Below, one piece after another: positions 4,453-20,162 of a stretch of 32,350 nt of DNA. The stretch spans positions 1-32,350 of the forward strand of contig JAFXIL010000078.1 of NCBI GenBank assembly GCA_017563185.1. Reading direction: 5' to 3'. The notes under the pieces are model-generated. The model made no database searches and had not been told where the DNA came from. It saw nothing but the letters and a program-made list of their open reading frames with translations. Every line of letters starts with the position of its first letter. The first letter of the stretch is position 1. The DNA comes from Kiritimatiellia bacterium. GTDB taxonomy: Bacteria; Verrucomicrobiota; Kiritimatiellia; RFP12; UBA1067. The position numbers and the translations under genes are program-made.

Positions 4453-4462
4453 ATTGTCCACC

Positions 4463-7342
4463 ATGAGATTGCCACTTCATAATGGATTCGTCAAGGTGGT
4501 ATGCGTCTGCCTTGCGATCGGGCTTGCCGCGTGCGCGGCGGCGGAGGAGAGGAACTGGTTCGGCGTGTCCTTTGCGGACTATCAGCCGGGACAGGCGGTT
4601 TCTTCCGCCGGCGCGTCCGGCGGCGCGTGGCGCGCCGGCGGCCCCGTGGCCACAAACGTCTTCGACGGCGTGCGCAACGGCATAGCCATCTCCACGCAGA
4701 TCGGCGAGGAGCTGGCGTTCGAGCCAGTGGCGCCAGAGGGGCGCAATGTGGAGCGCATCGAGTTCTCGATGTGTCCGAACGAGCTGGCCGTTGCGGGCAT
4801 CGGCGACTTCGACGGCGCGGCTGGGCTGCTTCCGTCGCGGCTGAGCACGGGCGAGGACGGCTATCTGGGCTTTACGGCCGCGGGCTGGATCGAGCTGCAC
4901 GGCGAAGGCGTGACGCCCGTCGCGAACGAATGGTTCGACGGCGTGATAGAGCTGAGAACGGTTGAGAACGTGCGGCTCGTGAGTTATCTCGTGAAGAAGG
5001 GCGGCGACTGGGTGCGGCTCGCGAACGCGGCTGGCGCCACGTGGTTCCGCACGTCGGCACCTCGGGCCCAGGGCGGCGTCGAGAGCGTGTCGTTCACGGG
5101 CAACGGACGCTTCGCCGACTTCGAGGGACGCGAGGACAACGGCGAGGCGCTGCGCCTCTACCGCTGGGCGGGCGGCACCTCCGGCGACTGGAACGACGCT
5201 GCCAACTGGACGCTCTCCGGCTCTCCCGCCGAGGCCGCCCCCGCAGCCGACGGCGATCTTGCGCTCGTCGACGGCACCGTCTCCATAACGCGCGGCGAAG
5301 AAAGCGGGCGCACCACCGACCTGATGGTGATGTTTGACGCGGACGGCGTGGACGTGCTGGGCGGCAGCGTGGGAACCGACGTCACTATCGACGTCGCGCG
5401 CCCGCGCGCCGGAAAGGCCCTGAAGGCCGAGTACGGAACGCTCTTCGGCCTTGCGCCAAGTTACACTTTCACCTGGCGGCGCGGCTCCACGGCCAAGTCG
5501 TACGAGTCAAGCCCGGTCAGCAAGAAGTCGTCGTACACGCCTACGGCGGCCGACTACGAGCACTGGTTCAAGTTCACCGCATACGACGGAGCGAGCGCAG
5601 TGCTTGAGAAGGAGTTCTTCTTCTCGAAGCTGCCCGTTCTCTATCTCACCACCGACGACGGCGCCACTCCCTCGGCTGGCAAGGAGACGCACGACGGGCG
5701 CATGTTCGCGCAGGGCAACGACGAATGGAAGTCGCTCTACGACGGCAAGATGACGATAAAGGTGCGCGGAAACTCCACGGCAAGCTACCCGAAGAAGCCG
5801 TGGAAGATCAAGCTCGACAAGAAGACGAAGATGTTCGACATCCCGAAGTCCAAGCACTGGGTGCTTCTGGCGAACTACAACGACCAGTCGATGATGCGCA
5901 ACAAGCTCGCGTACGACTTCGCGAACGACATCGGATCGCTCGGCATGAGATCCACGTGGGTGGAGTGCGTGCTGAACGGCGCATGGCAGGGAACGTACCA
6001 GTTCTGCGAGCACATCCGCATCGCGGAGGACCGCGTGAACGTGCACGACTGGGAGGGCGACGCAGGCGACATCGCTGAGGCGTTCGCCGCGGCGAACGGC
6101 CTCACGGGAGACCAGGAGGACGAGCTCGCCGCGCAGCTTGAGCAGAACTTCTCGTGGGTCACGTCCGATTCGTTCACCTTCTACGACGCAACGAACCGCG
6201 TCACTCTCGCCGGCAGGCCATCGGAGCTCTTCGACGGCTTCACGCAGGACATATCTGGCGGCTACCTCTTCGAGTTCTCCGAGGAGTACGACGAGGTCTC
6301 AAAGTTCACCACCACCTCCGGCGCGCTCGGCGTGAGGACAATGCTCAAGTCTCCCGAGTACCTCTACTCCAACACCGACATGATGAACGCCTGCAAGAAC
6401 TACCTGCAGAAGTACTGGGATTCGTGCACGTCCGTCGACGGCTATTCGGGCGAGGGCCTGCGCACATGCGACTACTGCGACTACGAGTCGATGGTGAGCT
6501 ACTGGCTCGTGATGGAGCTCTTCGGCAACAACGACGCCGTGAAGAAGAGCCGCTATGCCTACAAGGACCAGGGCGCGAAGCTCGTGTTCGGCCCGGTGTG
6601 GGACTTCGACTGGGGCATGGGCAGCCCGCGCGTCTCATCGGACGGCACCGGATGGAAGTGCCAGGAGGCGAGCGGCAAGACGGCCTACTCCTTCTTCAAG
6701 GAATGGGCCGACAACCCCGAGTTCTGCACGCGCCTCTACACGCGCTACTGGCAGGTGCGCGACCGTTTTGAACAGTGCTTCAAGTCCGGCGGGCTGATGG
6801 AACAGTACACCAACTACCTCTACGAGGCGTGCCTGGTGAACTCCGCCAAGTGGAACGTCGACTACAATCAGGGCTCCGGAAACTTCGCGGCCGACGTGAC
6901 GCGCCTGAGGAACTACCTTGTGCAGCGCCTCGCGTGGCTCGACCGGCAGTTCGCGAGCGTGCCCACGCTCATGGCGAGCGTAAAGCAGAGCACGTCCACA
7001 AAACCGTACACGGCCGACGCCGTCACGCTGCCGGTCAAGCTCACGGACACCAACTCCAACGGCATGATCTACACGGGGCGCCCGCTTCGCTCGCGGTTCG
7101 CGGTGGGAGGTTCTTCCGCGCGCACGGTTTCGTGCTTCGTTAACGGAACGCGCGTGGCGGACAAGGTGGCGCTCGTCTCGGGAATGTTCGACGCGACGAT
7201 TCCTGCGTCAGCGTTCACGGCGAAGGTGGGCGAGCCAAATTGCGTATCATTCATCGCGTACGATTCGTCCGGGGCGGTGGTTGCGCGCAACTACGCGCTC
7301 GTCACGCAGGTACAGTCCGGCTCCGTGCTGCTGCTGCGCTGA
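4463..7342 (+). CDS. Secreted CotH-family kinase-like protein
   Basis: 959 residues with an N-terminal signal peptide (MRLPLHNGFVKVVCVCLAIG onward). Residues about 230-260 carry the GDWNDAANW motif that opens beta-strand-repeat modules in other proteins of this window. The CotH domain runs from about 390 to 830: IKVRGNSTASYPKKPWKIKL near 432-452, WVLLANYNDQSMMRNKLAYD near 472, YQFCEHIRI near 512, and the metal-binding-like GPVWDFDWGMGS near 710. CotH of Bacillus is a protein kinase for spore-coat proteins; many Gram-negative relatives are exported and their substrates are unknown. The C-terminal part (about 845-959) is a beta-sandwich-like region ending in SGSVLLLR, nearly identical to the end of the first gene. 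The ATG at 4463 is chosen for the signal peptide and promoter position. Kinase activity is inferred from the family only. Confidence 0.82.
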   Translation: MRLPLHNGFVKVVCVCLAIGLAACAAAEERNWFGVSFADYQPGQAVSSAGASGGAWRAGGPVATNVFDGVRNGIAISTQIGEELAFEPVAPEGRNVERIEFSMCPNELAVAGIGDFDGAAGLLPSRLSTGEDGYLGFTAAGWIELHGEGVTPVANEWFDGVIELRTVENVRLVSYLVKKGGDWVRLANAAGATWFRTSAPRAQGGVESVSFTGNGRFADFEGREDNGEALRLYRWAGGTSGDWNDAANWTLSGSPAEAAPAADGDLALVDGTVSITRGEESGRTTDLMVMFDADGVDVLGGSVGTDVTIDVARPRAGKALKAEYGTLFGLAPSYTFTWRRGSTAKSYESSPVSKKSSYTPTAADYEHWFKFTAYDGASAVLEKEFFFSKLPVLYLTTDDGATPSAGKETHDGRMFAQGNDEWKSLYDGKMTIKVRGNSTASYPKKPWKIKLDKKTKMFDIPKSKHWVLLANYNDQSMMRNKLAYDFANDIGSLGMRSTWVECVLNGAWQGTYQFCEHIRIAEDRVNVHDWEGDAGDIAEAFAAANGLTGDQEDELAAQLEQNFSWVTSDSFTFYDATNRVTLAGRPSELFDGFTQDISGGYLFEFSEEYDEVSKFTTTSGALGVRTMLKSPEYLYSNTDMMNACKNYLQKYWDSCTSVDGYSGEGLRTCDYCDYESMVSYWLVMELFGNNDAVKKSRYAYKDQGAKLVFGPVWDFDWGMGSPRVSSDGTGWKCQEASGKTAYSFFKEWADNPEFCTRLYTRYWQVRDRFEQCFKSGGLMEQYTNYLYEACLVNSAKWNVDYNQGSGNFAADVTRLRNYLVQRLAWLDRQFASVPTLMASVKQSTSTKPYTADAVTLPVKLTDTNSNGMIYTGRPLRSRFAVGGSSARTVSCFVNGTRVADKVALVSGMFDATIPASAFTAKVGEPNCVSFIAYDSSGAVVARNYALVTQVQSGSVLLLR

Positions 7343-7407: not shown

Positions 7408-8706
7408 ATGAAAGACCTTAAAGCCGCATACAAGACAATCGAGGCAGACCACTTCGCGCCGCAGATGGAGATTTCGTTCATCGACGGCGACAAGCGCGAG
7501 ACGCTGAGCTACGAGAAGGTGACATGGAACATCGGCGGTGAGGAGAAGGGCCTGCGCTACGGCGAGAACCCCGGCCAGGAGGCCGCCCTCTACAAGCTCG
7601 TGAACGGAAACCTCGTTCTCGGCGACGTGGAGATGATCAAGCCCGGCAACTATCTCGCCTCCACGCCCGAGCTTCTCCAGAGCGGCAAGCACCCCGGCAA
7701 GACGAACGTCACCGACACCGACAACGCCCTCAACATCCTGCGCTACCTCAACGACCGTCCCTGCGCAGTGATCGTGAAGCACAACAACCCCTGCGGCGTC
7801 GCGGTGGCGGACACTCTCGCCGAGGCCTACTTCCGCGCCAACAAGGCCGACCGCCTCGCCGCGTTCGGCGGCGCGATCGCCCTCAACCGCGAGTGCGACG
7901 TCGACACCGCAAGGCTCATCGTGGAGAACTACGCCGAAGTCGTCGTCGCCCCCGAGTTCGCCCCCGGCGTGATGGACCTCTTCGCCGCCAAGAAGAATCT
8001 GCGCGTCTTCCGCATCCGCAACATGGCGCGCCTCACCGACTTCGTGGCGAAGACGGTGGTGGACTTCAAGAGCCTCATCGACGGCGGCCTCGTGGCGCAG
8101 ATGAGCTTCGTCTGCAAGGCCCGCAGGCCCGAAGACTTCATGCCCGCCTACTGCAGCCGCAAGATCACCGACAAGGCGACTGGCGCCGTCACCTTCGAGG
8201 AGCACAAGATCAAGCGCCTCCCCACGGAAAAGGAATACGCCGACCTCGTGTTCGGCTGGCTCGTCGAGGCGGGCGTCACGTCCAATTCAGTGCTCTACGT
8301 GAAGGACGGCGCAACCGTGGGCATCGGCACCGGCGAGCAGGACCGCGTGGGCGTGGCCGAGATCGCGCGCGACAAGGCGTACACCAAGCATGCCGACTGG
8401 ATCAGCTGGGAGAAGTACCAGCTTCCCTACAACGACCTTCGCCTCAAGTTCGGCGAGGCCGACGGCGCGATGAAGCAGGCCGAGATCATGGAGCAGACGC
8501 GCGCCGAGAAGGGCGGCCTTCCCGGATGCGCTATGGTGAGCGACGCGTTCTTCCCGTTCCGCGACGGCGCGGAGGTGGGCATCCGCGAAGGCATCACCTC
8601 AATCGTACAGCCCGGCGGCGCTCTGCGCGACTGGGACGTGATCGACTGCTGCAACGACGCGGGCGTGGCGATGGTCTTCACCGGCCAGCGCAGCTTCCGC
8701 CACTGA
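7408..8706 (+). CDS. AICAR transformylase, stand-alone (PurH C-terminal part)
   Basis: 432 residues. It transfers a formyl group from 10-formyl-tetrahydrofolate to AICAR, the penultimate step of IMP synthesis in the cytoplasm. The family signatures are in order: RYGENPGQEAALY, the catalytic VKHNNPCGVA (Lys about 124, His 125), AFGGAIALN, SNSVLYVKDGATVGIGTGEQ and VSDAFFPF near the end, closing with VFTGQRSFRH, the normal PurH C-terminus. Ordinary PurH is about 510-530 residues because an IMP cyclohydrolase (MGS-like) domain precedes this one. Here the protein starts almost directly at the transformylase domain and the sequence upstream is the previous gene's end, so the cyclohydrolase must be encoded elsewhere or be replaced. 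A good GAGGAG site supports the start. It is followed after 51 bases by purD. Confidence 0.9.
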   Translation: MKDLKAAYKTIEADHFAPQMEISFIDGDKRETLSYEKVTWNIGGEEKGLRYGENPGQEAALYKLVNGNLVLGDVEMIKPGNYLASTPELLQSGKHPGKTNVTDTDNALNILRYLNDRPCAVIVKHNNPCGVAVADTLAEAYFRANKADRLAAFGGAIALNRECDVDTARLIVENYAEVVVAPEFAPGVMDLFAAKKNLRVFRIRNMARLTDFVAKTVVDFKSLIDGGLVAQMSFVCKARRPEDFMPAYCSRKITDKATGAVTFEEHKIKRLPTEKEYADLVFGWLVEAGVTSNSVLYVKDGATVGIGTGEQDRVGVAEIARDKAYTKHADWISWEKYQLPYNDLRLKFGEADGAMKQAEIMEQTRAEKGGLPGCAMVSDAFFPFRDGAEVGIREGITSIVQPGGALRDWDVIDCCNDAGVAMVFTGQRSFRH

Positions 8707-8712
8707 TGGAAC

Positions 8713-8740
8713 GGTAGGGGCGGGCGGCCCGCCCGCCCGA
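8713..8740 (+). repeat. GGTAGGG hairpin element (intergenic)
   Basis: GGTAG followed by an 8-bp stem GGGCGGGC (8718-8725) / GCCCGCCC (8731-8738) with a 5-base loop, then GA. The same plan occurs at 13950-13976 with a different stem sequence. It lies between two genes of one apparent operon, so it is more likely an mRNA structure or dispersed repeat than a full terminator. Confidence 0.6.
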
Positions 8741-8757
8741 ACGGAACGGAGAGGAAA

Positions 8758-10062
8758 ATGAAGATTCTAGTTGTAGGCTCGGGCGGACGCGAACACGCAA
8801 TCACGTGGCGCCTCGCGCAGGACAAGGCGCGCCACGAGCTCTTCTGCGCGCCAGGAAACGCAGGCACCGCTGCGCTGGCCACGAACGTGGCCATCGGCGC
8901 GGAAGATGTGGAGGGCGTGACGGCCTGGGCCGCCGCCAACCGTCCCGATCTCGTGGTTGTGGGCCCTGAGGCACCGCTCGTGAAGGGACTTGTTGACGCA
9001 CTCGACAAGATCGGCGTCGCCGCGTTCGGTCCAGTTGCCGCAGGCGCGCGCATGGAGGGCTCCAAGCGCTTCGCGAAGGAGGTCATGAAGGCGGCAGGCG
9101 TGCCCACTGGCATGGCCGAGACGTTCACCGACGCCGCGGCCGCAAAGGCCGCGCTTCCTGCGTTCGGACTTCCCGTTGTGATCAAGGCGGACGGCCTTGC
9201 GGCCGGCAAGGGCGTGGTAGTGGCCGAGACGGCCGCGCAGGCCGAGGCCGCGATCGACGACATGCTCGTCGCGAACAAGTTCGGCGCCGCCGGCGCGGAG
9301 GTGCTCGTGGAGGAGTTCCTGCACGGCGAGGAGTGCTCCATTCTCGCGCTCGTCGACGGCGAGCGTGCGGTGCTGCTTCCGAGCTCGCAGGACCACAAGC
9401 GCGTTTTCGACGGCGACAAGGGACCCAACACGGGCGGCATGGGCGCATACTCGCCCGCGCCCGTCGTGACGGCCGACAAGCTGCCCGCCATCAAGGAGAA
9501 GATCATCCTTCCCGTCCTGCGCGAACTGAAGAAGCGCGGCATAACGTACCGCGGCATCCTCTACGCCGGGCTGATGGTGAACGACGAGAACTCCAACCCG
9601 CACGGCCCGCTTGCGAAGAGCGGCTCGAGCGTGAACGTGGTCGAGTTCAACGCGCGCTTCGGCGACCCCGAGACGGAGGCAGTGCTGCCGCGAATCGGCG
9701 GCGACTTCGCCACGGCGCTTCTGCACGCGGCAACGGGCTGCCTGCGCGACGAGGACGTGACGGTGAAGGACGAATGCGCCGCCACCGTGATTGTGGCCTC
9801 GGGAGGATATCCGGGCTCGTACGAGAAGGGCAAGGAGATTGCCGGCCTCGAAGGGAATCCCGCGCTCGTCTTCCACTGCGGCACGAAGAGGACGGATGAC
9901 GGCAAGGTATTGACGAGCGGCGGCCGCGTCCTGTCGGTCACCGGCCTTGGTCCCGATCTCCGCTCTGCAGTTGACGCCGCGTATGCCGGCGTGGAGCGCA
10001 TCTCCTTCGAGAATTCGTTCCACCGCAGCGACATCGCGCACCGCGCGTTCGAACGGGGGTAG
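8758..10062 (+). CDS. purD: Phosphoribosylamine-glycine ligase
   Basis: 434 residues, the normal size for PurD (GAR synthetase), an ATP-grasp enzyme joining glycine to phosphoribosylamine early in purine synthesis. It begins with the family signature MKILVVGSGGREHAI, followed by FCAPGNAGTA, VVVGPEAPLVKGLVD, the ATP-grasp segment VIKADGLAAGKGVVVA and the diagnostic GPNTGGMGAYSP. FNARFGDPETEAVLPRI supplies the metal-binding Glu/Asn. A GGAGAGGAAA ribosome binding site precedes the ATG. It is downstream of the AICAR transformylase and only 4 bases ahead of the next ORF, so it is part of the six-gene block transcribed from the promoter near 7349. Confidence 0.96.
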   Translation: MKILVVGSGGREHAITWRLAQDKARHELFCAPGNAGTAALATNVAIGAEDVEGVTAWAAANRPDLVVVGPEAPLVKGLVDALDKIGVAAFGPVAAGARMEGSKRFAKEVMKAAGVPTGMAETFTDAAAAKAALPAFGLPVVIKADGLAAGKGVVVAETAAQAEAAIDDMLVANKFGAAGAEVLVEEFLHGEECSILALVDGERAVLLPSSQDHKRVFDGDKGPNTGGMGAYSPAPVVTADKLPAIKEKIILPVLRELKKRGITYRGILYAGLMVNDENSNPHGPLAKSGSSVNVVEFNARFGDPETEAVLPRIGGDFATALLHAATGCLRDEDVTVKDECAATVIVASGGYPGSYEKGKEIAGLEGNPALVFHCGTKRTDDGKVLTSGGRVLSVTGLGPDLRSAVDAAYAGVERISFENSFHRSDIAHRAFERG

Positions 10063-12495: not shown

Positions 12496-13921
12496 CATCA
12501 TCCGCAGATCGGCCTTCGCCATCGCTCTCGGCGCATGTGCCGCCGTGGGTGCCGCGACGGTTTTCCCCGACTACTTCAACATCGAGATTCCGCCGAACAT
12601 CGCGCCGCTCAACTTCGACGTGGAGGGCGTGGATGGCGCGGTGGCGGTGACGCTGCGCGCGGAAGACGGCGCCACGCTCGCCGCGGAGGGCCCGAAGGTG
12701 CGCTTCCCCGAGCGCGCCTGGCGCCGCTTCATCTCCGCGCACGCCGGCTCGCGCATCACGGGCGAGCTCAAGACGGGCGGCGACACGTACTTCTTCACGA
12801 ACACCGTCTCGCGCCATCCTATATCCTCCCACCTCTCATACAGGCTCATTCCGCCCGGATACACCGGCTTCAACGAGGTGGGCATCTACCAGCGCGACCT
12901 CACCACCTTCGCGGAGCGCCCCCTCTACCGCAACCTGCAGACGAGCCGCCGGCAGTGCGTGAACTGCCACACCTACAATGCATGCGACCCCTCCCAGTAC
13001 CTCTTCCACACGCGCGCCTACAAGGCTGGCACGGTGGTGGTGAGCGCGAAGCACGGCAGGAAGATGATACGCCCTGAGATTCCCGGCGGCTACGCCTACG
13101 GCGTGTACCCCGCATGGCACCCCGGCGGCGACTACATCGCCTTCTCGTGCAACGACACGAGCCAGATATTCTACACGGCCAATCCGGACAAGATCGAGGT
13201 CATGGACTCGCGCAGCGACCTTCTGCTCTACAGCCTCCGGGACGGCAAGGTGACGATGATAGACGAAGACCCCACGCTCTTCGAATGCTATCCCACGTGG
13301 AGCCCCGACGGCAAGTTCCTCGTCACCTCCTCCGCGCGCACCCCGTTCCAGAACCTTCCGCCCGACCGCGACGGACGCGAGGCGCAGATGCGCGACAAGT
13401 ACTCTCAGGTCATGTACGATCTTTCCGTGCGCACCTTCAACGCGTCCAACTGCACCTTCTCGTCCCGGCGCATTCTCGTGAACGCGCTCACCTCGAAGCG
13501 CTCCTTCACTTTCCCGCGCATTTCGCCCGACGGCCGCTGGCTCGTCTTCGCGGTGGGCCCGTACGGCGTGTTCAGCATCTGGCACCGCACGGCCGACCTC
13601 TGGCTGCTCGACCTGCGCAGGAACGAGGCGCGTCCCCTCAACGAGATCAACAGCGCCGCTTCCGAGAGCTACCACTGCTTTTCGAAGAACGGGCGCTGGA
13701 TGGTGTTCTCGTCTCGCAGGATCGACGGCGTTTACACGCGCCCCTACTTCGCGGCGTTCGATCCGGAGAGGGGCGTATTCTCCAAGCCGTTTCTTCTGCC
13801 CGCCGAGGATCCCGCCGAACACGGCCGCAGGCTTCTTTCCTACAACATCCCGGAGCTGAGCGAAGGCCCTGTGCGCGAATCCCCGCGCGAGCTCCGCCGC
13901 CTCGTCGAGAGCGCCGATTGA
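12479..13921 (+). CDS. Exported TolB-like beta-propeller protein with CxxCH motif
   Basis: 480 residues with an N-terminal signal sequence (about 8-30, ending AAVGAAT). Residues 30-125 form a beta domain (F-N-I-E-I-P-P-N-I-A-P-L-N-F), followed by CVNCH at about 160-164, a c-type haem-attachment motif. From 200 on there are at least four WD40-like/PD40 blades: YPAWHPGGDYIAF, YPTWSPDGKFLV, FPRISPDGRWLVF and CFSKNGRWMVFSS. Relatives in Bacteroides are annotated as TolB-like translocation or cytochrome c biogenesis proteins; none has a settled role to my knowledge. The start at 12479 overlaps the DUF6057-like gene by 17 bases. Haem binding is suggested by the single motif and is not proven; the Cys pair could instead bind metal or form a disulfide. 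Confidence 0.75.
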   Translation: MNSSNDIIRRSAFAIALGACAAVGAATVFPDYFNIEIPPNIAPLNFDVEGVDGAVAVTLRAEDGATLAAEGPKVRFPERAWRRFISAHAGSRITGELKTGGDTYFFTNTVSRHPISSHLSYRLIPPGYTGFNEVGIYQRDLTTFAERPLYRNLQTSRRQCVNCHTYNACDPSQYLFHTRAYKAGTVVVSAKHGRKMIRPEIPGGYAYGVYPAWHPGGDYIAFSCNDTSQIFYTANPDKIEVMDSRSDLLLYSLRDGKVTMIDEDPTLFECYPTWSPDGKFLVTSSARTPFQNLPPDRDGREAQMRDKYSQVMYDLSVRTFNASNCTFSSRRILVNALTSKRSFTFPRISPDGRWLVFAVGPYGVFSIWHRTADLWLLDLRRNEARPLNEINSAASESYHCFSKNGRWMVFSSRRIDGVYTRPYFAAFDPERGVFSKPFLLPAEDPAEHGRRLLSYNIPELSEGPVRESPRELRRLVESAD

Positions 13922-13949
13922 CAATCGCCCCTGCCGGGCGCCCCCCCCC

Positions 13950-13976
13950 GGTAGGGCGCGCGCCCCGCGCGCGCCG
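13950..13976 (+). repeat. GGTAGGG hairpin element (intergenic)
   Basis: GGTAGG followed by an 8-bp stem, GGCGCGCG (13955-13962) / CGCGCGCC (13968-13975), with a 5-base loop, then GA. It has the same plan as the element at 8713-8740 but a different stem sequence. A run of nine Cs (13941-13949) precedes it. Confidence 0.6.
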
Positions 13977-13987
13977 AGCGCGCCGCA

Positions 13988-14125
13988 ATGCCGGGCAACA
14001 TGCTCAATCCAGTTGTGCCTTCTGGGTTCAACTTCGGCTCGCATCTCGTTCCCGAGCCCACGAGCGGGCTCTTGATGATGCTGGGCGCCGGGCTTCTGGC
14101 GCTGCGCCGCCGGCGCAGGGCCTAG
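13988..14125 (+). CDS. Orphan PEP-CTERM peptide, 45 residues
   Basis: An ATG at 13988 opens a 45-codon frame whose last part is a textbook PEP-CTERM sorting tag: VPEPTSGLLMMLGAGLLALR followed by further Arg residues and Ala. That gives the PEP motif, a hydrophobic helix and a basic cluster at the extreme C-terminus. Such tags are recognised by exosortase and usually sit at the end of large exported proteins. Here only 18 residues precede the tag and there is no signal peptide. No good ribosome binding site is seen. It is either the surviving 3' end of a lost PEP-CTERM gene or a tag fragment brought in by recombination; a functional micropeptide is less likely. No exosortase gene is in the window. 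Confidence 0.7.
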   Translation: MPGNMLNPVVPSGFNFGSHLVPEPTSGLLMMLGAGLLALRRRRRA

Positions 14126-14161
14126 ACCTTGCAGGGCAGATGCGGGACTGCCAGGGGATAA

Positions 14162-14285
14162 AGAGCGATTTCAAGGGATATCAAGCGATAGCGGACAGGC
14201 GATGCGCGGCTGTAGAGCCACTTCATCCACCTAGCGTCAACAGTGCGTGGCTTTTATCGCTTAAAATCCCTTAATATCCCTTAAT
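14162..14285. repeat. Inverted pair of 10-bp repeat arrays
   Basis: The left array (about 14164-14193) has three 10-bp units of the form AGSGATWTCA. The right array (about 14254-14285) has units CGCTTAAAAT, CCCTTAATAT and CCCTTAATAT, the same unit in the opposite orientation. Over 26 bases the two arrays are complementary at about 21 positions, so they could form one long hairpin. The right array ends about 27 bases before the -35 of the nucleotidase gene. Confidence 0.65.
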
Positions 14286-14311
14286 ATCCCTTCCCCCCCA
14301 AAAAAAAGCCT

Positions 14312-14340
14312 TTGCCCTGCAGCCGCAATAATGATATAAT
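14312..14340 (+). promoter_or_regulatory. Promoter of the nucleotidase fusion gene
   Basis: TTGCCC (14312-14317), 17 bases, perfect TATAAT (14335-14340) preceded by TGA (extended -10). The leader of about 24 bases contains an AAGGGAGAG ribosome binding site before the ATG at 14371. Confidence 0.65.
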
Positions 14341-14370
14341 AGCGGCATTACAGTCATCAAGGGAGAGCAA

Positions 14371-17300
14371 ATGAAGAAGCTATTGACAATGATTGCCATG
14401 GCGGCGATGGCGGCTTTTGGCGCGCCGAAGGTGATCATCGATACCGACATCGGCAGCAGCACGGATGACCTGTTCGCTCTGGAGATCGCGGCGCAATATC
14501 ATAAAGAGGATGTGATTGAGCTCGCCGCCGTGATGCTCGATCGCCCTGGAGCCGACAACTTCGCCTTCACCGACGCGTACCTCCACTACCACGAGCTCGA
14601 CGATGTTCCGATCGGCACCATCGGCGACGAGAAGGACTCTCGCAGGGTGTTCGTGCCGTACGCAACTCTCGTGCACACCAATGATGCCTCGGGGCGCGCA
14701 GTGATGCCGCGCCTTCCGGCGGGGAAGCGTCCCGGCGCGGTTATGGAGGCGGTTCGGCTCTACCGCCGCATCCTCGCCGATGCGCCGGACCGCTCGGTGG
14801 ACGTGTGCGCGATAGGCTTCTTCACGAACCTGATGCGCCTTCTTGACACGCCGCCCGATGCCGTCTCGTCCCTCTCGGGACGCGACCTCGTGGCCCGCAA
14901 GGTGCGCACGCTGCGCATAATGGCCGGATCGTTCGACCGATCTCTCGATCATCCCGAGTACAACGTGTGGGGCGACATCCCCAGCGCGCGGCGGATATTC
15001 TCCGAATGGCCCACGCCGATCGTGTGCACGCCGTACGAAGTGGGCGTGCGCGTGTACTATCCCTGCAAGGAGGTGCGCGAGGACTTCCCCGCGAACCACC
15101 CGATAGCGCTCTCCTACGGTCGCTGGGATCCGGACGGACCGCGCTCCAAATCGCAGCTGATGTGGGATCCGATGACTGTGCTTGCGCTGATCGACGAGGA
15201 GAAGAAGCTCGGCTTCTTCTCCAGTTCGGAGACAGGGCGGGTCGAAGTGGATGGCCAAGGCTACACGGCGTTCCGTCCTGACGCCGACGGGCGCACAACA
15301 GTGCAGGATCTTCCGCTCGGCCGTGCGGTGCGCGTGCGCAGATGGATGCGGCGCTTCGCCTCGGGCGAGAACCGCATGCCCGAGATCGAAGGCGGATGCC
15401 TGCGCGTTGCGGAGATCGCGCCTCAGCCGCGAGAGGGGGCGGCAGGGGAGTTCATCGTGCTCACAAATCTCTCGTCGCAGATAGAGCTTGACCTTTCGGG
15501 CTGTCGCGTGGTATGCTCGCGTCCCGAACTGGAGGTCGCAGTGGAGGCGAAGATACCGCAGGGCGTGAAGCTGGCCCCGCGCGGCGCGATCCGCCTGGAG
15601 AGAAACACGTACTGGCCGGATTCCGAGCTGCCTGCGAAGTCGCTCAACATCCTCATCTACGGCGCCGATGGCGGAGTGAAGAGCGAGGCGTTCGTGGATA
15701 CGCGCTGGTGGAACGGCGAGTGCGACGGCACTGGCAGGTACTTCGTGGCCAAGGCGTGGCGTCCGCTCGTTCTGCGTGCCGACCAGTGGCGTCCATCCGG
15801 CGAGCGCAGGGCGAAGAAGCCGCGCGTGATGATTCTCCACACGAACGACACGCACACGCACATCGACGACGGCAACGTCACCTTCTCGCAGATCGCCACC
15901 GAGAAGGCGCGTCTGCGCGCGGCCGGCGAGAACGTGATTCTTGCCGACGCAGGCGACTATGTGCAGGGTACCGCCTACGGCGGATACGACGAGGGCAGAA
16001 GCGTGATCGACATAATGAACGCCACGGGATATGACGTGGCGACGCTTGGCAACCACGAGTTCGACTATGGCATCGCGGCGATGACGGCGAATGTGGCGAG
16101 ATGCGCGTTTCCCGTGACGAGCTGCAACCTTGTGCGCAGAAACGCGGCGGACGAGCCGGGAGAGCGGGTGCTGCCCGCCTACGTGGTGGTGACGGGAGGG
16201 ACGGCGCGCGTCGCGTTCGTGGGAGTGACAACGCCCACCACGCTCGTCGCCTCGAAGCCGGCTACGTTCCTCTCGGCGAAGGGCGACTACCGCGAGTGGG
16301 ACTTCATCGCGGGCGAGAAGGGCGAGGCGTTCTACGCCGCCGTGCAGAAGGCCGTGGACGAGGCGTCCGCGAAGGCGGACTACGTGGTGGTGCTGGGGCA
16401 TCTGGGCGTCTCGGCCGACTGCGCGCCGTACATGTCCACGGACCTGATCGCCCACACCACGAACTTCGTTGCGCTCATCGACGGCCATTCCCACTCATCT
16501 ATGGAGGGCGCGCGCGTGAAGAACGCCATTGGCCGCGAGGTGATACTCGCGCAGACGGGGTGCTACCTCGGCGCGCTTGGCTGCCTCACGCTCGACGACG
16601 GCGCGTGCGTGGCGGCGTCCACCTTGTTCCCGGCGCGCACCAAGGAGCCTGAGGTGGAGTGGCTCGAGACGCGCCTGATCGGCGCCGTGGAGCGCCAGCT
16701 TGGCGCGCGCCTCGCGATCGTCGATTCGGCGGTTTGCTCGTTTACGCCCGGCACAGGGGTGCGCCTTGCGCGCTCGCAGGGGTGCGCGGCGGGAGACTTC
16801 GCGGCGGACGCGTACTGGTGGTATGTGCGCGAGAAGGCGGGGCTGCGCTGCGACTTCGCGCTCGTGAACGGCGGAAACGTGCGCGCGGACATTCCGAAGG
16901 GCGAGGTGACATTGAAGACGCTGCGCACAGTGCAGCCGTTCGGCGGCGGCGTGGGGCTTGTCGAGGTTGACGGAGCGACGGTGCTCGATGCGCTGGAGTT
17001 CGGCGCGCAGGTGGTGGGCAAGAGCGAGAGCGGCGGGTTCCTTCATGCGGCCGGACTTCGCTACGTGATCGACGCGCGGATTCCATCCAGCGTGAAGGTT
17101 TCTCCTTCGGGCGCATGGACGGGCGGGCCGACCGGCGCGCGCCGTGTGGGCCATGTGCAGGTGTACGACCGCGAGAAGGGCGAATATGTGCCGCTCGATC
17201 CAGCGAAGAAATACTTCGTGGCGGGCAACAGCTTCACGCTGATAGAGGGGGGCGACGGGTTCGAGATGTTCAAGCGCGCACGCTCTGTGAACAAGACGCT

Positions 17301-17463
17301 TGAGACCGACTATGTGGCGCTGGCTGACTATGCAAAGGCGTTTACGAAGGGCAGCAACGGTGTGCCGCGCATAAAATCTGCCAACTCTCCTCTTGCAAAA
17401 CTAAAAAAATATCCACTTGCATACGAAAAACCAGAAGGTTCAGGACGAGTCACCATACGATAG
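14371..17463 (+). CDS. Secreted nucleoside hydrolase / LTD / 5'-nucleotidase fusion
   Basis: 1030 residues with a short signal peptide (MKKLLTMIAMAAMAAFG). Domain 1 (about 20-320) is a nucleoside-hydrolase fold with the metal/ribose motif DTDIGSSTDD at 24-33. Domain 2 (about 345-470) looks like a lamin-tail domain (EFIVLTNLSSQIELDLSGCR). Domain 3 (about 480-720) is a 5'-nucleotidase metallophosphoesterase with LHTNDTHTH near 488, DAGDYVQGT near 527, GNHEFDYG near 560 and GHSHSS near 705. Domain 4 (about 760-1000) is its substrate-binding domain with VNGGNVRADIPKG near 831. In families where the parts occur separately, the nucleotidase makes nucleosides and the hydrolase splits them to base and ribose; one secreted chain could do both. 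The last 30 or so codons switch to AT-rich usage and end GSGRVTIR. Confidence 0.88.
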   Translation: MKKLLTMIAMAAMAAFGAPKVIIDTDIGSSTDDLFALEIAAQYHKEDVIELAAVMLDRPGADNFAFTDAYLHYHELDDVPIGTIGDEKDSRRVFVPYATLVHTNDASGRAVMPRLPAGKRPGAVMEAVRLYRRILADAPDRSVDVCAIGFFTNLMRLLDTPPDAVSSLSGRDLVARKVRTLRIMAGSFDRSLDHPEYNVWGDIPSARRIFSEWPTPIVCTPYEVGVRVYYPCKEVREDFPANHPIALSYGRWDPDGPRSKSQLMWDPMTVLALIDEEKKLGFFSSSETGRVEVDGQGYTAFRPDADGRTTVQDLPLGRAVRVRRWMRRFASGENRMPEIEGGCLRVAEIAPQPREGAAGEFIVLTNLSSQIELDLSGCRVVCSRPELEVAVEAKIPQGVKLAPRGAIRLERNTYWPDSELPAKSLNILIYGADGGVKSEAFVDTRWWNGECDGTGRYFVAKAWRPLVLRADQWRPSGERRAKKPRVMILHTNDTHTHIDDGNVTFSQIATEKARLRAAGENVILADAGDYVQGTAYGGYDEGRSVIDIMNATGYDVATLGNHEFDYGIAAMTANVARCAFPVTSCNLVRRNAADEPGERVLPAYVVVTGGTARVAFVGVTTPTTLVASKPATFLSAKGDYREWDFIAGEKGEAFYAAVQKAVDEASAKADYVVVLGHLGVSADCAPYMSTDLIAHTTNFVALIDGHSHSSMEGARVKNAIGREVILAQTGCYLGALGCLTLDDGACVAASTLFPARTKEPEVEWLETRLIGAVERQLGARLAIVDSAVCSFTPGTGVRLARSQGCAAGDFAADAYWWYVREKAGLRCDFALVNGGNVRADIPKGEVTLKTLRTVQPFGGGVGLVEVDGATVLDALEFGAQVVGKSESGGFLHAAGLRYVIDARIPSSVKVSPSGAWTGGPTGARRVGHVQVYDREKGEYVPLDPAKKYFVAGNSFTLIEGGDGFEMFKRARSVNKTLETDYVALADYAKAFTKGSNGVPRIKSANSPLAKLKKYPLAYEKPEGSGRVTIR

Positions 17464-19293: not shown

Positions 19294-19494
19294 ATGCAAA
19301 CATATTTACCGATGAAAACATATTTACCGAGAGTTTCCGATTTGATGATCATTGCTGTGGCCGCGCTTGTGTCGGCTGTCGCGTTCGACGCTGCGGCGGG
19401 CGAGCCGGTCGGCTTCAGGGAGCAGTGCCGGAAGCAGCGCGCCTCTTTGGCCTGTCGTTCGGTCGAACAGAATGAAACACATAACAGACAATGA
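19294..19494 (+). CDS. Small secreted-protein-like ORF coupled to the GH16 gene
   Basis: 66 residues from the ATG at 19294, or 60 from the next ATG at 19312. A 14-16 base sequence around AACATATTTACCGA is repeated in tandem across the two starts, so they duplicate each other (MQTYLP, MKTYLP). A hydrophobic signal-like segment (LMIIAVAALVSAVAFDAAAG) is followed by a polar tail with two Cys. The stop overlaps the GH16 start as ATGA. It could be a leader peptide, a small exported protein, or the 5' end of a gene whose body was replaced by the GH16 gene. No function is recognised. Confidence 0.45.
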   Translation: MQTYLPMKTYLPRVSDLMIIAVAALVSAVAFDAAAGEPVGFREQCRKQRASLACRSVEQNETHNRQ

Positions 19495-20162
19495 ACATGA
19501 GTAAACTGATTACCTTCGCCGCAGTCGCGGCGTGTGCGGCATTCGCCGCGATGGCGGACAAGAAGCAGTTCAGCGCTTTGGACGGCGAAGAGGCGAAGCG
19601 CGTCAAGACGCATAATTTGGATGGCTCGCCCGTCGTCTGCGAGAGCGTCGCGACGGTCGAAGGGCGCGAGGCGTCGCTTCTCCCGAAGGGACGCCAGTTC
19701 AAGCTGGTCTGGAACGACGAGTTCGACGGCGATCGTCTGGACGACTCAAAATGGGGCTGGCGCACCAACTTCTGGGGGCGTCCCGCGCACTGGTTCGCGA
19801 CGCCGGAGGACAATGCGCACGAAGTGAAGGACGGGCTTTTGCATTTGAAGCTCGTCAAGCGTCCGGACGGGCAGTTCGTCTCGCCGCAGCTGCAGACGGG
19901 CGAAATCGTCTGGGACGTGCCGCCTGCGGAGAATTCCAAAAATTTCTGGCCGCTCCCGAAGCGCGGCAAGCCGAAGTTCACGCACCGCTACGGCTACTAC
20001 GAATGCCGCTGCCGCCTGCAGCAGAAGCCGGGATGGTGGTCCGCGTCCTCGATGCCGGGTATGAGGTATGCCTGGATCGTGTTCCAGTGCCTGCCAAGCC
20101 TGTATGGCGGCATTTCAGGGAGATTGGGCCGTTCGTCTTGTGCTTTCATGCCCATAGTATAA
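19491..20162 (+). pseudogene. GH16 beta-glucanase-like gene, 3' truncated
   Basis: 223 codons. It starts with a signal peptide (MNMSKLITFAAVAACAAFAA) and then shows the GH16 jelly-roll entry: FKLVWNDEFDG near 68-78, DDSKWGWRTNFWG, and the strand RYGYYECRCRLQQKPGWWSA near 165-185. In GH16 enzymes this strand is followed by FW and then the catalytic E-x-D-x-x-E on the next strands. Here the frame instead runs into SSMPGMRYAWIVFQCLPSLY and stops, without the catalytic motif, and no continuation is visible in the other frames. The 3' half thus appears to be deleted or replaced. As it stands it could not hydrolyse laminarin, agar or similar beta-glycans. It shares an ATGA overlap with the small ORF before it. 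Confidence 0.7.

Follow-up and report, generated by a model that had tools for sequence, protein, structure and literature searches.

Architecture of the fused protein

Can a single exported protein carry out two consecutive steps of nucleotide breakdown? The question is raised by a gene in the middle of the window (the whole stretch of DNA that was analysed, 32,350 nucleotides in length), for which an earlier note, made from the sequence, had described a nucleoside hydrolase (NH), a lamin-tail domain (LTD) and a 5'-nucleotidase fused in one exported chain of 1030 residues, and had proposed that the combination would turn extracellular nucleoside monophosphates (NMPs) into free base and ribose. 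The gene is a single ORF that runs from ATG to stop with zero internal stops (Table 1), and a Pfam domain search of its product finds IU_nuc_hydro, Metallophos and 5_nucleotid_C in the one chain. All three exceed the curated Pfam cut-offs (65.4 bits against 34.2 for IU_nuc_hydro, PF01156, which was matched at the DNA level also), and Metallophos precedes 5_nucleotid_C as expected. The motifs quoted in the earlier note (DTDIGSSTDD, LHTNDTHTH, GNHEFDYG and VNGGNVRADIP) are all present in the sequence. The E-values rule out a chance match, as does the existence of full-length orthologues, 95% and 89% identical, in two independent genomes. Structure prediction for the whole protein, conducted with 7 sequences, returned a mean pLDDT of 41, too low for the model to be used.

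The protein is probably exported, in keeping with the earlier description, since its N-terminus, when read by eye, has the features of a signal peptide, namely a basic start, a hydrophobic stretch and then small residues ahead of P19. A promoter-like site, identified by a consensus scan, is located just upstream of the gene.

Table 1. Location of features of the fused gene and of related NH-containing proteins. Coordinates refer to the window unless a contig is named.
Feature	Residues	Coordinates	Strand	Basis or remark
Promoter-like site, TTGCCC-17-TATAAT, extended -10 TG		14312..14340	+	Consensus scan, 10/12 matches; consensus match only
Fused gene, complete	1030 aa	14371..17463	+	Orthologues L044 (95%), L045/L065 (89%)
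Probable Sec signal peptide, MKKLLTMIAMAAMAAFGA	1-18	14371..14424	+	Read by eye
Nucleoside-hydrolase domain, IU_nuc_hydro	21-309	14431..15297	+	Pfam PF01156, E 9.1e-18
NH aspartate fingerprint, DTDIGSSTDD	24-33	14440..14469	+	DxDxxxxxDD, two-residue insertion
NH motif E196-Y-N198, counterpart of E-F/Y-N in known NHs	196-198	14956..14976	+	Invariant in alignment A1; aligned with solved NHs
NH C-terminal motif W265-D266, calcium-ligand Asp after Trp	265-266	15157..15171	+	Invariant in alignment A1
Lamin-tail-domain-like segment	~343-476	15397..15798	+	Homologous to Pfam LTD segments of L077, L094 and P0002
Short variable linker	~477-486	15799..15828	+	Lowest identity of the protein
Metallophosphoesterase domain	488-709	15832..16497	+	Pfam PF00149, E 4.7e-9, and alignments
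5'-nucleotidase C-terminal substrate-binding domain	798-969	16762..17277	+	Pfam PF02872, E 5.2e-30
NH-DUF6807-PL11 protein	1200-1300 aa	L064 3932-7867	-	G009
NH-DUF6807-PL11 protein	1200-1300 aa	L038 6821-10464	+	G016
GH36 alpha-galactosidase C-terminal piece-NH-LTD		L046 3-1823 = L034 8257-10077	+ (L046), - (L034)	G001; one open frame, cut by contig end

The 5'-nucleotidase half

The Metallophos domain contains the motifs LHTNDTHTH (489-497), DAGD (526-529), GNHEFDYG (560-567), GHLG (676-679) and DGHSHS (704-709), with D493, H495, D529, N561, H562, H677, H706 and H708 as key residues, and the C-terminal domain contains VNGGNVR (832-838), GGFLHAAG (888-895) and EGGDGF (959-964). Both the dinuclear-metal motifs (NDxH, GD, GNHE, H and GHSH) and the C-terminal NGGxxR and GGDGF are thereby represented. 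The best solved relatives of this half are the CD73, venom and Thermus 5'-nucleotidases, and the family profile spans the whole nucleotidase domain in the Thermus, venom and human (CD73) enzymes (E to 5e-52). When compared with UshA and CD73/ecto-5'-nucleotidase (PF00149 plus PF02872), the C-terminal half can be aligned end to end and shares the metal- and substrate-binding motifs, whereas the fused protein has an additional N-terminal NH-LTD half of 480 residues; the NCBIfam equivalog cut-offs for 5'-nucleotidase are not reached by the fused protein. Judged from these motifs and alignments, the C-terminal half is very likely a working 5'-nucleotidase that removes phosphate from NMPs.

The nucleoside-hydrolase domain

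The hallmark of characterised NHs is the motif DxDxxxDD (PMC8910321, PMC3608555). The stretch that the earlier note took to be the NH motif does retain all four aspartates of this fingerprint, but is two residues longer than the classic form, and the five solved NHs shown in the alignments are all gapped at the insertion. An Asp motif altered in a different manner, DxxxDxDD, goes together with the absence of detectable NH activity in HopQ1, a plant-pathogen effector (PMC3608555). D24, D26, D32 and D33, together with E196-Y-N198 and W265-D266, are invariant across 14 aligned sequences (alignment A1), and a check for lost catalytic residues found the metal-binding and catalytic residues retained in both enzyme domains of the fused protein.

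The residue that precedes the last calcium-binding Asp is His in group I NHs, Trp in group II and Cys in group III, Trp at this position being a leaving-group feature of the group II (IAG), purine-specific enzymes (PMC8910321). The Trp-Asp pair of the fused protein is group-II-like, which suggests a preference for purine nucleosides. Near residue 152, at the position that provides a calcium-binding carbonyl, Thr, Val and Ser occur across the three species that carry the fusion; since this position contributes its backbone carbonyl only (PMC8910321), the variation was not counted against activity. The nearest solved NH relatives are distant (best E 1.6e-10, with profile), and no close solved or characterised relative of the domain was found. 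In relation to the PF01156 NHs of groups I and II, then, the domain is alike in fold family (by profile), in its calcium-binding aspartates and E-Y-N motif and, with regard to group II, in the Trp before the last Asp, and differs in the fingerprint insertion, in its distance from these enzymes and in being situated within a multidomain secreted protein.

The lamin-tail-like segment

Pfam gives no PF00932 (LTD) match within the window protein. Residues ~343-476 do, however, share 25-50% identity with segments elsewhere that are scored as LTD, namely those of an NH-LTD protein of genome G510 (L094, E 5e-8), of L077 (3e-6) and of P0002, a protein of genome G261 (4e-4), all three matches falling below the curated cut-off of 34.3 bits. 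The list of parts given in the earlier note is therefore right, with the LTD call supported, if weaker than the others. Outside the fusion, some of the closest relatives of its LTD are segments of CotH-kinase proteins; one CotH-kinase protein is encoded in the window (4454-7342, +), related ones are present at L075, L079 and L080, and CotH occurs with LTD and Fn3-associated domains in related large proteins.

The LTD, which has an Ig fold, forms part of the NH unit and may buttress the NH domain or act as a binding domain for a polymer, for example nucleic acid. LTDs occur on extracellular nucleases, for which DNA binding by the domain has been suggested (PMC4486849, PMC6085458), and a DNA-binding LTD would suit a nucleic-acid scavenger. 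The fused protein resembles the LTD exoenzymes (ExeM-type nucleases and LTD DNases) in that an LTD is borne by an extracellular enzyme that degrades nucleic acids (PMC6085458, PMC4486849), but it has other enzyme domains and its LTD is positioned between two enzymes.

Distribution, conservation and origin of the fusion

The complete fusion is present in 3 of the 346 genomes of the class, namely the window genome (100%), G011 (95%) and G013 (89%), which represent three species of one Kiritimatiellae genus; G011 and G013 correspond to a metaWRAP MAG and to Kiritimatiellae bacterium isolate RGIG4394, the latter recovered from roe deer omasum. The possibility of an assembly chimera was rejected since three independent MAGs share the fusion, and no frameshift that would split the domains is evident in the two close relatives. 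The fusion was not found in plasmid records, in a 388-genome sample of the phylum (the window's own aside) or among 299 sampled genomes from the phylum of Sutcliffiella. Scoring in the large samples covered the two or three best candidates of each genome, such that divergent cases could be missed. Nor was a described NH/5'-nucleotidase fusion found in the open-access literature. Within these genome samples and this literature, on which the term 'rare' rests, the combination is indeed as unusual as the earlier note had supposed: the parts belong to known families, and their fusion is recent, conserved and rare.

Selection on the fused gene was assessed by pairwise comparison among the three species. 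Values of dN/dS are 0.10-0.15 for the NH domain, 0.04-0.10 for the LTD, in which dN is the lowest of all domains, 0.08-0.10 for Metallophos and 0.12-0.15 for 5_nucleotid_C, and the fusion is free of stops and frameshifts throughout. Variation is tolerated in the short linker only, identity to the G013 protein being 65% across residues 470-486. The low dN/dS in every domain indicates that both enzyme halves and the LTD are being kept.

The nucleotidase half exists as a stand-alone protein of ~590 residues, mostly 61-65% identical, in ~20 other genomes, several of them of the same genus. In the window genome, which is 97% complete, the fused gene is the only match to 5_nucleotid_C, indicating that the fusion fills the place of the separate gene. 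With respect to the N-terminal half, the fused proteins form one clade of the NH tree (96 SH-aLRT) with the GH36-NH-LTD protein of G001, the NH-LTD protein of G510 and P0002 of G261. An LTD lies directly behind the NH domain in 6/6 members of this clade, and NH-LTD is therefore regarded as the older unit; it occurs outside the class also, in G510, a genome of the same phylum, without a nucleotidase. The nucleotidase parts of the three fused proteins likewise form a single clade (97/89), apart from the separate genes, with long branches in the tree.

P0002 (L072 4852-6909, -; 685 aa), which belongs to another genus, arranges NH, LTD and Metallophos as the fusion does, is more divergent, and is without 5_nucleotid_C and the NH E-Y-N stretch; it is possibly decaying, or has turned to another role. 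Its nucleotidase part pairs with the other nucleotidase of the same genome (96/97), which suggests a second, separate joining, although the tree test does not reject one common origin (p-AU 0.078). G261 also encodes a 5'-nucleotidase with a long C-terminal extension (L071 1586-5960, +), in which a BACON-like domain and, by eye, a caspase-like-looking stretch are present.

The fused gene would thus have arisen when the older NH-LTD unit became joined to a 5'-nucleotidase gene that relatives keep separate, replacing that gene. Fusion by the joining of neighbouring genes is not supported, the separate 5'-nucleotidase genes having unrelated neighbours. The NH-LTD genes of G001 and G510 show no adjacent nucleotidase within the contigs shown, which are short and make for weak evidence.

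Function of the fused protein

On balance, and with modest confidence, the motifs favour an exported bifunctional nucleotide-scavenging enzyme that would take NMPs to nucleosides and these to base and ribose. The C-terminal half, a 5'-nucleotidase of the CD73/UshA type, would remove phosphate from nucleoside 5'-monophosphates, and the N-terminal NH-fold half would then cleave the N-ribosidic bond of the released nucleoside. We infer from the fusion to a 5'-nucleotidase that the two activities are coupled in a shared substrate chain, and the NH-LTD-Metallophos order of the more distant P0002, in another genus, lends further support. Other bacteria are known to feed on nucleic acids by means of exported nucleotidases and extracellular nucleases that bear an LTD (PMC8289736). 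Of the conversion envisaged in the earlier note, the nucleotidase step, with its full motif set, is very likely; hydrolysis by the NH half of the nucleoside that it receives is likely but less firm, with the altered fingerprint, distant solved relatives and absent close characterised relative, the glycan-type contexts described below, the losses in P0002 and the GH28 neighbour all counting against it. A more far-reaching version of this scheme, in which the NH-LTD unit has been joined at least twice to 5'-nucleotidase domains in separate lineages, substrate is handed over between the sites and the protein is the first natural bifunctional enzyme of its kind, is rather doubtful.

Catalysis might instead be confined to the nucleotidase half, with the NH domain and LTD together binding ribose or another furanose without catalysis, a role that has been proposed for Sde_0182, and tethering the nucleotidase to nucleic acid or plant polysaccharide. 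Bacterial NH modules that are part of multidomain proteins can lack activity and may act as furanose binders; Sde_0182 itself is inactive on nucleosides, its dimer interface being occupied by a beta-sandwich that prevents oligomerisation (PMC8910321). The LTD is also a beta-sandwich and is always attached in this NH clade, such that a Sde_0182-like arrangement is conceivable here, and the alteration of the NH fingerprint points in the same direction. As described, the multidomain polysaccharide-binding proteins of the Sde_0182 type likewise combine an NH fold with a beta-sandwich (PMC8910321), whereas in the fused protein the sandwich resembles an LTD and follows the NH domain in the chain, and a second, classical enzyme is attached. 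Conversely, the 14 aligned sequences retain, without variation, all calcium ligands, E-Y-N and the Trp that precedes the final Asp, while XopQ, an inactive member, is described as being without leaving-group residues (PMC8910321). Additionally, the NH domain has dN/dS values as low as those of the nucleotidase half, and a purely binding role is considered unlikely.

The NH domain could, alternatively, be an active glycosidase whose substrates are plant glycans or glycosides that contain furanose, such as the side chains of pectin, in which case two unrelated hydrolytic activities would be paired for use on plant material. Two genomes of the same bacterial family encode NH domains fused to DUF6807 and the rhamnogalacturonan lyase PL11 (Table 1), which hints at a part for certain NH-like domains in the degradation of pectin, although the NH domains concerned occupy a different branch of the NH tree. 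Within the clade of the fused proteins, the NH-LTD unit is preceded by a GH36 C-terminal piece in G001 and adjoins a GH38-like gene (named from sequence) in G510, and a GH28 gene is situated directly downstream of the fusion in the window; in three species of the window's genus, however, it is a nucleotidase to which the unit is joined. We know of no NH-fold furanosidase that acts on glycans, and such an activity is held to be decidedly unlikely. It is highly improbable, finally, that the fusion is a functionless accident, a relic with one half decaying. Its rarity, at 3 complete cases in 346 genomes, and the loss of parts of both enzymes from the G261 relative would fit with this, but every domain is under purifying selection in three species, stops and frameshifts are absent, and the motifs are intact.

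Should both halves of the proposed scavenging enzyme be active, one secreted protein could degrade extracellular nucleotides as far as phosphate, base and ribose in the rumen, an environment rich in nucleic acid released by lysed microbes. The fusion also provides a handle on a group of secreted NH-like domains that have the DxDxxxxxDD fingerprint; unlike the pectin-lyase fusions, the partner enzyme here names a likely substrate, and the role of these domains is therefore directly testable.

Genomic neighbourhood

The surroundings of the fused gene vary among the three species. In G011 (L066 581-5274), ~4.7 kb with two further ORFs separates a PD40 gene from the fusion, a stretch that is absent from the corresponding interval of the window (13921-14371); in G013 the neighbourhood is wholly different. 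A few genes upstream of the fusion in the window are two genes of purine synthesis, a purH-like gene (AICARFT_IMPCHas) and purD (7408-10062, +). An ORF at 19491-20162 (+) resembles the beginning of a GH16 glucanase before passing into unrelated sequence; it has no Pfam match, and is possibly truncated or frameshifted.
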